Origin: Candidatus Yanofskyibacteriota bacterium
Lineage (GTDB): Bacteria > Patescibacteriota > Minisyncoccia > 2-02-FULL-40-12 > GWA2-44-9
Direction: 5' to 3'
NCBI GenBank assembly: GCA_903830625.1
Contig: CAIKUK010000008.1
Coordinates: 1 to 43,014, forward strand
DNA length: 43,014 nucleotides
In this document: in pieces, positions 20,352 to 26,495 of the stretch
How the letters are laid out: every line of letters begins with the position of its first letter
How positions within the stretch are numbered: position 1 is the stretch's first letter
Translations under genes and position numbers: made by a program
Notes under the pieces: generated by a model
Databases searched by the model: none
Told to the model about the DNA's origin: nothing
The model's input: the letters and a program-made list of their open reading frames with translations, nothing else

Positions 20352-21035
20352 ATGTTAGAAGTATTACAAGCGTCTGATATAGTGCAGGGTTCTTTACTCA
20401 CGCTTTGGTCCGGAGTCGCTGGTTTCGTCCCGCGTCTCATAGCGGCCTTAGTCGTGTTTTTGATTGGCTGGCTCGTGGCCGTATTGCTCGGCAAGCTTGT
20501 CTATCACATTGTCCGCATTTTGCACATTGATAGCGCCTTAACGAAAGTCGGGTTCCGACGAGCCTGGGAACGCAGCGGCTTCCGTTTGGATACGCCGAAA
20601 CTATTTTATGAACTCATAAAATGGTTCTTTATCATCGTTTTCTTGATGGCGGCCACCAATATTTTGGGTTTGACCGAAGTAACGAATTTCCTCCAGAGCG
20701 TGGTCTATTACATTCCGAATGTCATTATCGCCGCCATAATTTTGCTCATCGGTATTTTGGTGGCAAAATTCTTGGAGGGTATGGTTCAGGGCTCGGTAAA
20801 AGCGGCTGGTCTCGCTTCGGCGAATTTCCTCGGGACTTTAACCAGATGGGCGATTTTAGTCTTCAGTTTGCTCATCGCTTTAAGCCAATTGAAAGTGGCT
20901 GATGATATTATCAAGATTGTCATCACTGGTTTGATTGCCGCGACTGCGCTGGCCTTAGGTTTATCCTTTGGTCTTGGCGGCGCCCGTCACGCCGAAGAGA
21001 TGGTCGGTCATCTTAAGAAGAGGATTAACGACTAA
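20352..21035 (+). CDS. Conserved TM-helix repeat membrane protein (MscS-like N-terminal helices)
   Basis: GGAGGTG RBS; LIAALVVFLIGWLVAVLLGKLVYHIVRIL; VIIAAIILLIGILVAKFLEGMVQGSV; LALGLSFGLGGARHAEEMV. Confidence 0.8.
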   Translation: MLEVLQASDIVQGSLLTLWSGVAGFVPRLIAALVVFLIGWLVAVLLGKLVYHIVRILHIDSALTKVGFRRAWERSGFRLDTPKLFYELIKWFFIIVFLMAATNILGLTEVTNFLQSVVYYIPNVIIAAIILLIGILVAKFLEGMVQGSVKAAGLASANFLGTLTRWAILVFSLLIALSQLKVADDIIKIVITGLIAATALALGLSFGLGGARHAEEMVGHLKKRIND

Positions 21036-21083
21036 TCAATAATCTTAAATCAAAAATCGGTCTTGAGACCGGTTTTTGATTTC

Positions 21084-21653
21084 TTAATTCTGTTTGAGGA
21101 CCTGGAGCAATCGATTGTATATTTCGGGGAACATTTTTTTAATGACTTCCCGGTCTTTAGACGAGAATTTGGCGAGGACGAATTCCATGACAAATTCGTC
21201 TCTCTTGGAATCGGATTGTTCACGGGCTTTTTGAAGTGCCCTGACGGCAGTGCCAATACGAAGCCGGTGGAACTTATTGGTTTTTAAAGATTTAATAATT
21301 GATTCGATGCCCTTGTGCCCGCCCGAATTTTTCTCGAATGAATTTTTGAAGGCGCCGAATTCTATGTCTAAATCATCCTGAATGACGATGACATCTTTGG
21401 GTTTAACTTTATAAAACTTGGATGCTTTAGCAACCACTTCGCCGCTTTTATTCACATAGCCAAGCGGTTTCAACAATACCACCGGGGTTTTCTCTATTTT
21501 AGATTTGGATATCAGAGCGTTTAATTTTTTATCTTCCGCAAAATCGTTAGCGTCTATCTTCTTGGCCAGATAATCCAAGAACAAAAATCCGACATTATGC
21601 CGCGTCTCCTTATATTCCGGATCAGGATTGCCGATGCCAATAATTAGTTTCAT
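21084..21653 (-). CDS. pth: Peptidyl-tRNA hydrolase
   Basis: MKLIIGIGNPDPEYKETRHNVGFLFLD; LLKPLGYVNKSGEVV; VIQDDLDIEFGAFK; NSGGHKGIESII. Confidence 0.96.
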   Translation of the reverse strand: MKLIIGIGNPDPEYKETRHNVGFLFLDYLAKKIDANDFAEDKKLNALISKSKIEKTPVVLLKPLGYVNKSGEVVAKASKFYKVKPKDVIVIQDDLDIEFGAFKNSFEKNSGGHKGIESIIKSLKTNKFHRLRIGTAVRALQKAREQSDSKRDEFVMEFVLAKFSSKDREVIKKMFPEIYNRLLQVLKQN

Positions 21654-21690
21654 GTCAAAATTATACCAAAATTAGGCAAATTTGACACTA

Positions 21691-21719
21691 TTGACTTTTT
21701 AATAAAATAGGAGTATAAT
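21691..21719 (+). promoter_or_regulatory. Promoter of DGR target gene
   Basis: TTGACT-17 nt-TATAAT. Confidence 0.65.
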
Positions 21720-21797
21720 TAAAGTATAGTTGAAGCTCTGAAATAGGGGCTTCTGAAGAGCAATTACGCTCTTTGAAAAAGAAAGGACGGGTGTGCA

Positions 21798-22535
21798 ATG
21801 ACAAACATTGTGAGCCCAAAATTCAGCCCTGCGGATTTTTCTGAGGGGCAAAGCCACGAGATGCTCGTGACGCTTGGGAAATTCGGCTTCTCGCCGAAGA
21901 TGGCCGACCAAGTGGCCAACCCGAAATCCGGGATGGCCACGAAAATCGTCGCACTGTTCGTCGCGGCGATGGACGTGACCAGCGACCTCAAGGAACAGCT
22001 CGGCTGGTGGACGGCGTTGTGGGCGGAATTCGGCTTCACGGTCGATCCAACCTCAATCACGCTTCCAACCGTGCCGGCAGGTTTCGGTCCTGTCCGTCTG
22101 GGGGTCATTCCGCAAGGACTGACCATTCAGAAGGCCTGGGAGATTGCCGAGTCTCTGTTCCCCTGCAAGAACTGGATTGACGGGGATCTGGACAAGGCGA
22201 TTCCGACCAACGATCGGAAAACCGACAAGGCCTACGCCGTGGCTTTCCGCGACAGACCCGAAGCTGACGAGGAATTCAAAAACCTCTCGGCCAACGACCT
22301 GAAGGCCCGCAACCACAAGGGTATCACGGCTCTGGAAACCATCGTCGATGAAGTCGGCTTTTACAAGAAGACTGGCGGTCATCGCGATATCCAAAACGTG
22401 ACTCTCTGTTCGGGTTCGCGGAGCTCGGATGGCTTCGTGCCGAGGTCCCGCTGGTACGACGACGTGTTCCTGCTGTACTGGCTCCTCGCTGGCTATCGGG
22501 ACGACAATCTCCGCTCCCGTCAGGCAGTTTCGTAA
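21798..22535 (+). CDS. DGR target (variable) protein
   Basis: C-terminal SGSRSSDGFVPRSRWYDDVFLLYWLLAGYRDDNLRSRQ is the VR corresponding to TR-encoded TGSRNSDGNVPKSNWNDDKFQLNWNNADNRNDNLRSRQ. Confidence 0.93.
   Translation: MTNIVSPKFSPADFSEGQSHEMLVTLGKFGFSPKMADQVANPKSGMATKIVALFVAAMDVTSDLKEQLGWWTALWAEFGFTVDPTSITLPTVPAGFGPVRLGVIPQGLTIQKAWEIAESLFPCKNWIDGDLDKAIPTNDRKTDKAYAVAFRDRPEADEEFKNLSANDLKARNHKGITALETIVDEVGFYKKTGGHRDIQNVTLCSGSRSSDGFVPRSRWYDDVFLLYWLLAGYRDDNLRSRQAVS
22411..22523 (+). repeat. DGR variable repeat (VR)
   Basis: 113-nt match to 22798-22910 with 18 substitutions, all at TR adenines. Confidence 0.97.
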
Positions 22536-22566
22536 TCCTTCTGCCTTTTGGCTTGTACCCTTTTCT

Positions 22567-22596
22567 GTCCCGTTTGCTTGGAGGAGCAAACGGGAC
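22567..22596 (+). terminator. Perfect 12-bp hairpin downstream of VR (terminator and/or DGR cruciform)
   Basis: gtcccgtttgct tggagg agcaaacgggac followed by TTTT. Confidence 0.8.
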
Positions 22597-22797
22597 TTTT
22601 CTATTTCAAAAATATATAATTAATCTTGGCTAATAAACTGGCTCCGCCATGGCGGGGTAGCGGTTTGCCCAAGATAACGAAACTGCTTGTTCAATTCTGG
22701 TGAGGAGCTCCCTCTTGAAAAAATCCAGTTAGAACTGGACAACACAGAAGACTTTGCAAAAGGTCTGCGGTGATACAGATGGATTTGAACAATAAAA

Positions 22798-22910
22798 CGG
22801 GTTCGCGGAACTCGGATGGCAACGTGCCGAAGTCCAACTGGAACGACGACAAGTTCCAGCTGAACTGGAACAACGCTGACAATCGGAACGACAATCTCCG
22901 CTCCCGTCAG
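22798..22910 (+). repeat. DGR template repeat (TR)
   Basis: Adenine-rich copy (AAC-rich codons) of VR; identical to VR at all non-A positions. Confidence 0.97.
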
Positions 22911-22933
22911 AAGTCTCGCCAAAACCGCTCCGC

Positions 22934-23266
22934 TTAATGCGGAGCGGTAAGGTATTTAATCCAACCATTAGTCATACGAGATATTTCTTGAAGGTCAGAT
23001 TCAAATTCAATGTATCGATGGGCTGGTATAATATTTAGGTCGTTAGATATTCTGAAGAGTTGTTTTAAAAGCTCAATATTAATTCGGGCTTTGTTAAGAA
23101 TCAGTAGCTTGTTCGGCCTTATTTCAAATGTGGCTTGAGTAACTTGAGCCATCAGTTCTAAACAAATATTTTCTATCTTGAGGTAGATACCGAATTGGTC
23201 TCTTTTTGATATCTTAGATTTAAGTAGGTAAACTTTCTTGTAAAACTTACAAACGTAATGAACCAA
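22934..23266 (-). CDS. avd: Avd-like DGR accessory protein (four-helix bundle / S23-like)
   Basis: SKRDQFGIYLKIENICLELMAQVTQATFEIRPNKLLILNKARINIELLKQLFRISNDLNII...LQEISRMTNGWIKYL matches the bAvd/S23 pattern; located between TR and RT, opposite strand. Confidence 0.82.
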   Translation of the reverse strand: MVHYVCKFYKKVYLLKSKISKRDQFGIYLKIENICLELMAQVTQATFEIRPNKLLILNKARINIELLKQLFRISNDLNIIPAHRYIEFESDLQEISRMTNGWIKYLTAPH

Positions 23267-23282
23267 AGAAATATTAACGTCG

Positions 23283-24269
23283 TTGGGGGGGGGGCTTAAT
23301 GGTCATGATATTTTTGAAGAGATAATCAGTCTTGAAAATTTATTTTTTGCGTGGCGGGAATTTAAGCGTGGCAAGACTAATAAATTTGAAATTCAGGAAT
23401 TCGAGTTGAATCTTGAAGATAATCTCTTTCAGCTTCATAGTGAACTAAAAAATAAAATCTACATTCATTCTGACTATACAGCGTTTTATGTCAATGACCC
23501 AAAACTACGGCACATCCACAAAGCATCCGTGCGGGACCGCGTTCTACATCATGCAGTATTTAGAGTGTTGAATCCGATTTTTGACTCGCATTTTATACAT
23601 GATTCTTACTCGTGCCGAACGGGCAAAGGTACGCATCGGGCAGTTAATCGGCTTAAAAAATTCTTGGCTCAAGCCAGCCAGAATGATAAACGCTTAGTTT
23701 ATGCACTTAAATGCGATGTGAAAAAATTCTTTGACTCAATCGACCAGAATATTTTGTTAGAACCTATCTGTCGGTACATCCATGATGAACGTACATTCCA
23801 ACTCATTCAGCAAATTATAGGCAGTTTCGAAAAAACTCCAGGCGTTGGGTTGCCCCTAGGCAACGTCACCAGCCAGTTATTCGCCAACATTTATCTTAAT
23901 GAATTAGACCAATTTGTAAAACATCAGCTTAAAATAAAACATTATCTTCGTTATTGCGACGATTTTATTATTCTGGGGCATAATCCATATGCTTTGGAAG
24001 AGAAGGCTAAGCAGATTGATAATTTTTTACAAGAACGGCTAAAACTTTATCTTCATCCCAACAAAATCATTATCCGCAAATACCGACAAGGGATTGATTT
24101 TTTAGGGTATGTCATATTGCCACACCATAGAGTCCTTCGAACCAAGACAAAATTAAGGATACTCAAGAAAGTTAATGAGGGCGTCAATGAGTATAGTCTA
24201 CAGTCTTATTTTGGCATTCTTTCCCATTGTGCGGGTCACGATATTAAACAAAAAATATTAATAATTTAA
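23283..24269 (+). CDS. DGR reverse transcriptase
   Basis: HIHKASVRDRVLHHAVFRVL, ALKCDVKKFFDSID, GVGLPLGNVTSQLFANIYLNELD (DGR-type GxxxSQ), HYLRYCDDFIILG catalytic YxDD, GIDFLGYVI. Confidence 0.95.
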   Translation: MGGGLNGHDIFEEIISLENLFFAWREFKRGKTNKFEIQEFELNLEDNLFQLHSELKNKIYIHSDYTAFYVNDPKLRHIHKASVRDRVLHHAVFRVLNPIFDSHFIHDSYSCRTGKGTHRAVNRLKKFLAQASQNDKRLVYALKCDVKKFFDSIDQNILLEPICRYIHDERTFQLIQQIIGSFEKTPGVGLPLGNVTSQLFANIYLNELDQFVKHQLKIKHYLRYCDDFIILGHNPYALEEKAKQIDNFLQERLKLYLHPNKIIIRKYRQGIDFLGYVILPHHRVLRTKTKLRILKKVNEGVNEYSLQSYFGILSHCAGHDIKQKILII

Positions 24270-24286
24270 ATAAAAACAAGTGAAGT

Positions 24287-24487
24287 CTTAGCGATTTTTT
24301 TCGCTCCGCAGACAAAGACTGGCCCGCAGAAGCGGTTCGATGGATTCTGATAATCATAGGTCGAGCCGCCAAGCTTTAGCTTGGCCTAAATATGAGGTGA
24401 GGGTTACTTGTGATTATCAGCTTAATCCATCAGAGCTGTCTTCAAGGGACAGGCTGAAGTTGAGGACGTGCGAGAAAAATCGCTAAG
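24287..24487. repeat. Fold-back intergenic element B (candidate structured RNA)
   Basis: Outer 18-bp arms 24287-24304/24470-24487; inner 10-bp 24347-24356/24411-24420 and 8-bp 24339-24346/24424-24431; apical gccaagct/agcttggc hairpin. Confidence 0.8.
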
Positions 24488-24535
24488 GCGGAACGTCATA
24501 TTGAATTGCCCGAAAAAATAGAGTAAAATAACTAA

Positions 24536-25150
24536 ATGTCTGAAGAAGAATTCAAATATGTGATGTCTGAAAATCCATCCGGCGAGCCGACAATGAAGAG
24601 CGAAGTTTTCGCTTTTTTATGGGAAACAATTAAGATCGTTGTTGTTTCACTGATTATCATCCTGCCGATTCGCTATTATATTGTTCAGCCGTTTTTCGTG
24701 AAAGGCGCCTCAATGGAATCAAATTTTGAAGACGGAGATTATATTTTTGTTGATGAACTGTCGTATGGCTTAGGGAATCCGAGCCGGGGCGATGTGGTTA
24801 TCTTCCGGTACCCGCTCGACCAATCTCAATTTTTTATCAAGCGTGTCATCGGTTTGCCCAACGAGACCATTGATATTAAAAATAATAAAGTGACGATTTA
24901 TAATGCCCAGCATCCCGAAGGCGTGGTGCTTAATGAAACTTACCTTGACCCAGGCCAGCAAACTCTTGGTACTTCGCGTATTAAACTCGACAGTAATGAC
25001 TATTTTGTCTTAGGCGACAATCGCCTTCGCAGTTCCGATTCTCGAACCTGGGGTGTCCTCAACCGGTCGTTTATTACTGGCAAAGCTTTCATCCGGCTCT
25101 GGCCATTTTCAAAATTAGGAACGGTCCCTCATTTCTCGTATCCGATATAG
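24536..25150 (+). CDS. lepB: Signal peptidase I
   Basis: VKGASMESNFEDGDYIFVDELSY (catalytic Ser), RGDVVIFRYP, FFIKRVIGLPNETI, VLGDNRLRSSDSRTWG. Confidence 0.95.
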   Translation: MSEEEFKYVMSENPSGEPTMKSEVFAFLWETIKIVVVSLIIILPIRYYIVQPFFVKGASMESNFEDGDYIFVDELSYGLGNPSRGDVVIFRYPLDQSQFFIKRVIGLPNETIDIKNNKVTIYNAQHPEGVVLNETYLDPGQQTLGTSRIKLDSNDYFVLGDNRLRSSDSRTWGVLNRSFITGKAFIRLWPFSKLGTVPHFSYPI

Positions 25151-25196
25151 AGGGACTTGCGTTCAGGCAAGTTATAGTGGTATTTAATTATTAAAC

Positions 25197-26495
25197 ATGT
25201 CAAAACTCAAAGCCAAGCAAATTCAGTCGGTCCGGGGCATGCACGATATTTTGCCCGAAGAACAGAAATATTGGCACTATATCCAAAAGAAAATCGAAAG
25301 TCTTTTGGAATATTATGGTTTTGAACGTATCAGTACGCCGGTCTTGGAATCAGTGGAGCTGTTCAATCGTTCCGCCGGCGAGACATCCGATATTATTTCT
25401 AAAGAAATCTACACTCTTAAGACCAAGGGCGGGGACATGCTGGCTTTGCGTCCCGAAGGCACAGCGCCGGCGGTGCGGGCTTATCTGGAAAATGGCATGA
25501 ATGTCCGTCCGCATCCCGTGAAGCTCTACTACATTGACCCCATGTTCCGCCACAATGAACCGCAAGCCGGCCGGTATCGGCAATTCTATCAACTGGGTCT
25601 GGAAACAATCGGCGACGGTTCTGAAGCCGTCGACGCCGAAATGATTTTTATTGCCTACAAACTTTTGGATTCGTTAGGCCTTGATGGTTATGATGTCCAC
25701 ATCAACAGTATCGGCGACCAGAACTGCCGGCCGGCGTACATCAAAGCCCTTAAAGATTATTTCCGCACCCGAGGTAAAAAACTATGCGTCAATTGCCGGA
25801 ATCGTTTGAAAGATAATGTGTTGCGCGTTCTTGATTGTAAAGAAGAAGGCTGTAAGGAAGCCATCAAAGAAGCGCCCCAGATGATGGATTTCTTAGATGA
25901 TGCTTGTCGGTTGCACTTCAAACATGTTTTAGAATTCCTGGATGAAGCGAAAGTGCCTTATATTCTTGACCCATATTTAGTCCGCGGGCTGGATTATTAT
26001 ACCCGGACCGTCTTTGAATTGATGCCGAACGAAAATGCCGGCGCGCAATCAACCTTGATTGCCGGCGGGCGCTATGATCGGCTAATTGAACAGCTCGGTG
26101 GTGTTAAAACGCCAGCCGCCGGCTGGGCCATGGGCATTGAACGCATTATCTTGGCGATGAAAGAAAAAAATGTTCATGTGCCCGAAATCGGTCCGAAGCC
26201 GAAAGTTTTTCTGGTCCAGCTTGGTGAAGCACCCAAGCGCAAAGCTCTGCCTTTGTTTGAAAGTTTCCGTAAAGCGGGGATAGAGGCTAAATCTTCGCTC
26301 GGCCGGGATAGTATCAAATCCCAACTTCGCATTGCTCATCGTCTTGGTGTCCGCTTTGCTTTAATCTTCGGCCAGAAGGAAGCACTAGAAGGCACGATTA
26401 TTCTCCGCGAAATGGATACCGGTGTTCAGGAAACCATTCTTCTTGAAAAAATAGTAGATGAAGTCAAAAAACGTTTGAAAGAAAAACAAGAATAG
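25197..26495 (+). CDS. hisS: Histidyl-tRNA synthetase
   Basis: VRGMHDILPEEQKYW; LRPEGTAPAVRAYLE; GRYRQFYQLGLETIG; VRGLDYYTRTVFE; GGRYDRLIEQLGG. Confidence 0.97.
   Translation: MSKLKAKQIQSVRGMHDILPEEQKYWHYIQKKIESLLEYYGFERISTPVLESVELFNRSAGETSDIISKEIYTLKTKGGDMLALRPEGTAPAVRAYLENGMNVRPHPVKLYYIDPMFRHNEPQAGRYRQFYQLGLETIGDGSEAVDAEMIFIAYKLLDSLGLDGYDVHINSIGDQNCRPAYIKALKDYFRTRGKKLCVNCRNRLKDNVLRVLDCKEEGCKEAIKEAPQMMDFLDDACRLHFKHVLEFLDEAKVPYILDPYLVRGLDYYTRTVFELMPNENAGAQSTLIAGGRYDRLIEQLGGVKTPAAGWAMGIERIILAMKEKNVHVPEIGPKPKVFLVQLGEAPKRKALPLFESFRKAGIEAKSSLGRDSIKSQLRIAHRLGVRFALIFGQKEALEGTIILREMDTGVQETILLEKIVDEVKKRLKEKQE

Follow-up and report, generated by a model that had tools for sequence, protein, structure and literature searches.

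What does a run of ten G do at the place where the reverse transcriptase (RT) gene and the avd gene of a diversity-generating retroelement (DGR) begin, and can one such run decide whether both of them are read? The question is raised by a cassette in the window, by which we mean the whole stretch of 43,014 nt that was analysed. The cassette lies between pth and lepB-hisS, and its features are as follows.

21798..22535, plus strand: target gene of 245 aa with the VR at its 3' end (ORF, AlphaFold model)
22411..22523, plus strand: variable repeat, VR (alignment to TR)
22501..22523, plus strand: putative IMH-like 3' zone of VR, same as in TR (5 A unchanged)
22538..22562, plus strand: degenerate CTT array with 7-7-8-nt spacing, directly 3' of the target stop codon
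22567..22596, plus strand: 13-bp hairpin with a T tail, terminator-like, possible target hairpin (43 nt from VR)
22798..22910, plus strand: template repeat, TR (alignment to VR)
22924..22948, no strand assigned: 10-bp hairpin directly 3' of TR, spanning the avd stop codon (folding)
22934..23266, minus strand: avd (bAvd), ORF from TTG, antisense to TR (Pfam, PHROG)
23258..23260, plus strand: ATG, putative RT start (MNQRNINVV-GGG...), off-frame at G10, in frame at G9
23283..24269, plus strand: DGR RT with motifs LGNVTSQ and YCDD; the listed ORF opens with TTG at the tract
23285..23294, plus strand: G10 tract (C10 on the avd strand), putative common slippage switch
23304..23306, minus strand: ATG, putative avd start reading across the C tract, off-frame at C10, in frame at C9

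The locus is a genuine DGR in a chromosome of the Patescibacteria type, as seen from its A-restricted TR/VR pair, its DGR RT, its Avd and the C-terminal position of VR in the target. A gapless alignment of VR and TR covers 113 nt and shows 18 mismatches, and all 18 fall on the 31 A of TR (nine A to T, six A to G and three A to C), which would happen with P = 6e-13 if the substitutions were placed randomly. The sequence-only reading had reported 18 substitutions, no indels and every change at an A of TR; re-alignment agrees with its coordinates and counts, and no C, G or T position of TR is changed in VR. The differences alter 13 codons of the target, mostly AAC (Asn) in TR. The final 23 nt are the same in VR and TR despite their 5 A, while upstream of this zone 18 of the 26 A are changed. 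This identical 3' end had been said to fit an IMH; the non-mutated zone is real, and we infer that it is IMH-like, with no difference within it that would distinguish an IMH at VR from an IMH* at TR. The assembly (598 kb in 24 contigs) has one RT and no further VR or TR. Among related loci, 72 TR/VR pairs hold 1288 changes at A in TR and 26 at other bases, a count that is biased by a scan which admitted no more than one non-A mismatch in 70 nt; the pair in the window is free of this bias and was found from the sequence without that rule.

The RT has its best match among solved structures in 8ub7 (E 9e-48), which we take to be the RT of the BPP-1 DGR, followed by RTs of the group II intron type (1e-20), and it matches RVT_1 in Pfam and phrog_1423 (E 6e-109). 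Identities as a group II intron RT or a defence RT were rejected, their matches being weaker than the DGR match. Avd matches bAvd in Pfam (PF22296, 49.6 bits with a cut-off of 40) and "Avd protein of DGR" in PHROG, and reaches 47 bits in NCBIfam, under the cut-off of 80 bits. Together with the target ORF that ends in VR and the 72 related pairs, these matches support the A-specific mutagenic retrohoming that had been proposed from the letters. In line with established DGR biology, a complex of RT and Avd would copy TR RNA with errors opposite A, and the mutated cDNA would then take the place of VR.

The target ORF stops 12 nt beyond VR, which is in frame at its 3' end. The 245-aa protein has no family match in Pfam, NCBIfam or PHROG, and its profile matches no PDB sequence; the AlphaFold model (pLDDT 89) gave no significant match in PDB and BFVD, the best non-significant ones being C-type lectins. 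RT relatives in named genomes are nearly all from Patescibacteria. An orthologous cassette, also upstream of lepB, is found in the genome G002 of the same genus, with identities of 75% for RT, 87% for avd and 34% for the target. In G003 a gap of 663 bp with no DGR gene separates pth from lepB; it contains other sequence and hence does not represent a clean empty site. As a side observation, the target (21798-22535) is 34% identical to that of locus L230, from another species of the genus, while avd is 87% and RT 75% identical; this target gene has either diverged far faster than avd and RT, or was exchanged.

The layout of avd and RT is particular to this group. In all 130 loci of the Patescibacteria set that have avd, it lies upstream of RT and antisense to both TR and RT, so that TR and avd converge, whereas in 56 of 57 loci on viral contigs avd is on the same strand as RT (the exception, L125, is Patescibacteria-like). 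The 5' coding ends of the two genes overlap in the window across one G:C tract, with the RT ATG 27 nt to the left of it and the avd ATG 9 nt to the right. The tract is the longest G run in the assembly, which has four sites of G8 or more in its 598 kb. A tract of G6 to G13 stands at the RT start of 89 distinct loci of the Patescibacteria set, with a mode of 9-10, and 38 loci are tractless; the fetched loci, 0.95 Mb in total, contain 99 G/C runs of at least 8, nearly all at the RT start. GGG makes up 21% of the Gly codons in RT and CCC 23% of the Pro codons in avd. Since these codons are only about a fifth of their kind, the pure tract appears to be kept as nucleotides, and codon use speaks against a poly-Gly/poly-Pro constraint as its only cause.

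The start codons on both sides of the tract differ with the kind of locus. We divided the tract loci into class A, 56 loci with no in-frame RT ATG to the right of the tract, and class B, 30 loci with one. Of the 56 class A loci, 40 have an ATG on the left side of the tract at a distance of 22-37 nt, vs 4 of the 30 in class B (Fisher p 2.5e-7). This left ATG corresponds, on the opposite strand, to an Avd His codon (PLVHK), at a position that is mostly Gln or Lys in class B and in tractless loci, and the avd ATG is in the same manner the reverse complement of an RT His codon (e.g. GHDIF), a His that is found also in some tractless RTs. An avd ATG to the left of the tract occurs in 4/51 class A and 4/28 class B loci, compared to 22/36 at the corresponding place in tractless loci. 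In class B the tract would control at most avd, so that any switch in these loci might affect only Avd. We also observed that L090, L104, L107, L109, L206 and other class B loci have kept the tract though their RT ATG lies behind it, only avd reading through.

For class A we worked out how many G must be gained or lost to bring the ATG of RT into frame with RT, and likewise for avd. In 36 of the 37 unambiguous loci both genes call for the same change (20,000 permutations gave a mean of 14.5 and a maximum of 25), which means that the antisense overlap is codon-aligned constantly on both sides; the concordance could partly stem from the fixed codon register of the conserved His residues. Scored in 39 loci, the phases are 9 ON (in frame), 20 with one G over and 10 with one G short, that is 30 OFF, in a comparison across loci with one genome per species and with homopolymer lengths that may be off by one in draft assemblies. 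At least 15 phase changes are needed on the RT tree of the scored loci, and the genome G134 has two DGRs that differ in phase, L210 and L223, their tracts being G9 and G7. RT is in register with its ATG in the loci with a decayed tract (L013, L022, L035) and in L014, which has G6; for avd, assessed in two of these loci, the same holds in L014 (computed) and L013 (read from the sequence). As at a contingency locus, the geometry lets the repeat length set the reading frame, and this length varies between relatives that have intact genes beyond it.

With one G in excess, RT and avd are OFF in the window as well as in G002, and G9 would be ON in the window. All the same, both genes are under purifying selection between the two (RT: dN 0.18, dS 3.56, saturated; avd: dN 0.08, dS 0.93), which argues that the two frames are used, as unused frames would have decayed. 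The suggestion that the system was recently active is plausible in so far as non-A differences have not built up between VR and TR. Against it, the upstream ATGs of RT and avd are off-frame by one G of G10, a tract that the sequence-only reading had overlooked, and most of the sequenced population may therefore be in the OFF state, a conclusion that would not hold if TTG 23283 (RT) and TTG 23266 (avd) serve as starts.

The most rational explanation for these observations, and one that we consider probable, is that the tract would act as a shared, reversible (phase-variable) frame switch of RT and Avd. Read from these ATGs, the tract length modulo 3 puts both genes in frame or neither. Slipped-strand mispairing would add or remove G in the tract within populations, and with the two ATGs serving as starts the result would be joint ON/OFF expression; in the ON reading the N-terminus of RT would be MNQRNINVVGGG and that of Avd MTIKPPPNDV. 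Retrohoming in the prototype DGR requires RT and Avd (PMC12875486), and a common tract would toggle the whole machine in one step. Cells would alternate between a mutating state, with RT and Avd ON, and a silent one, and a changing fraction of them would mutate while the remainder would keep a variant that has been tested. We lean, with a little less assurance, towards the wider reading that many Patescibacteria DGRs would carry one poly-G contingency switch that toggles RT and Avd jointly.

An ordinary DGR in which RT and avd start at nearby TTG or GTG codons, the tract being a by-product or a poly-Gly/poly-Pro linker, appears unlikely to us. In the window the in-frame TTG codons at 23283 and 23266 could start both genes at G10, and avd has some ATG, GTG or TTG to the left of the tract in 39 of 51 class A loci, but for RT any TTG or GTG to the right of the tract is present in just 10 of 56. 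Tractless relatives have a proper RT ATG in 34 of 38 cases, the left ATG occurs mostly where RT has no other ATG, and the pure tract outlasts saturating synonymous divergence even in class B, whose tract is not part of RT; these points speak against an ordinary DGR.

The conservation of both genes with 30 of 39 loci OFF would also be understandable if RNA polymerase or the ribosome slipped on the run and so supplied a little in-frame RT and Avd at all times, irrespective of the tract length in the DNA, a throttle instead of a switch. Such programmed slippage would couple the two genes too, but it should favour one fixed offset, and all three phases occur, even among near relatives; we hold it to be a slightly poorer candidate than the ordinary DGR. 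That most loci are truly in frame and their tract lengths are assembly or sequencing errors is very improbable. The loci do come from metagenome drafts, and the assemblies of L088, L110 and L116 have N gaps at the tract; such gaps, however, fit difficult sequence or length mixtures alike, and are expected of real mixtures as well. Errors would have to be present in 30 of 39 independent assemblies, and they would leave both the conservation of the tract and the concordant layout unexplained.

Compared with known systems, the cassette is like the DGR of Bordetella phage BPP-1 in its A-only TR/VR substitutions, its RT and Avd and the VR at the 3' end of the target. It differs in that BPP-1 has avd-TR-brt on one strand as an operon (PMC12875486), whereas here avd is antisense, head to head with RT, and a G tract is common to both. 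With the clade 2 DGRs of Roux et al. 2021 (PMC8144416) it shares the Patescibacteria host group and the cellular location, and it probably belongs to this Patescibacteria-restricted clade; searched by term, that paper yielded nothing on avd, homopolymer or orientation. The same authors describe that targets turn over more slowly in cellular clades of DGRs, that of Patescibacteria among them, and leave open if the cause is stronger RT control or stronger selection (PMC8144416). If true, the frame switch would be RT control of the kind left open there. The tract resembles the poly-G/poly-C tracts of phase-variable genes in Campylobacter and Neisseria, with about 8-11 G in the 5' coding region and three frames among relatives, but unlike these it would, as one tract, govern the reading frame of two divergent, overlapping genes, both belonging to a mutagenic retroelement, and its variation is here known from differences between relatives. 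In the limited literature that was searched, no paper was found that describes a DGR controlled in this manner, by phase variation, a poly-G run or strand slippage. The DGR itself is of a known type and, as far as the searched literature goes, the proposed shared poly-G frame switch would be the new part. If true, it would bring together phase variation and mutagenic retrohoming, two separate ways in which bacteria diversify, and would account for possible mis-start or frameshift annotation of the RT and avd genes of this group.

Some further observations were made on the cassette and its relatives. RT lies in two frames in L019 and L091, as if frameshifted within the gene body. Between RT and lepB, at 24284-24495, there is an imperfect palindrome of about 210 nt with a rod fold (-103 kcal/mol, z -8.95); it has no match in Rfam and no similar sequence among the fetched loci, and no Rfam family was found within 21000-25500. 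The 13-bp hairpin at 22567-22596, behind VR, fits a terminator as well as a DGR target hairpin. In BPP-1 such a hairpin is found within 35 bp of VR (PMC3240598), whereas this one is 43 nt away, behind the CTT array. Chains of at least three CTT with 7-8-nt spacing are present in 53% of the VR flanks of related loci and in 56% of a second set, in comparison to 1.4% after RT stops and about 8% after the VR of viral-contig DGRs, and the array is possibly a target-recognition element. A hairpin between the convergent TR and avd, at 22924-22948 in the window, can be seen by eye in most related loci, in many of them with A-rich sequence before and T-rich sequence after it, like a bidirectional terminator; were it one, the 3' spacer of the TR RNA would be far shorter than that of BPP-1.
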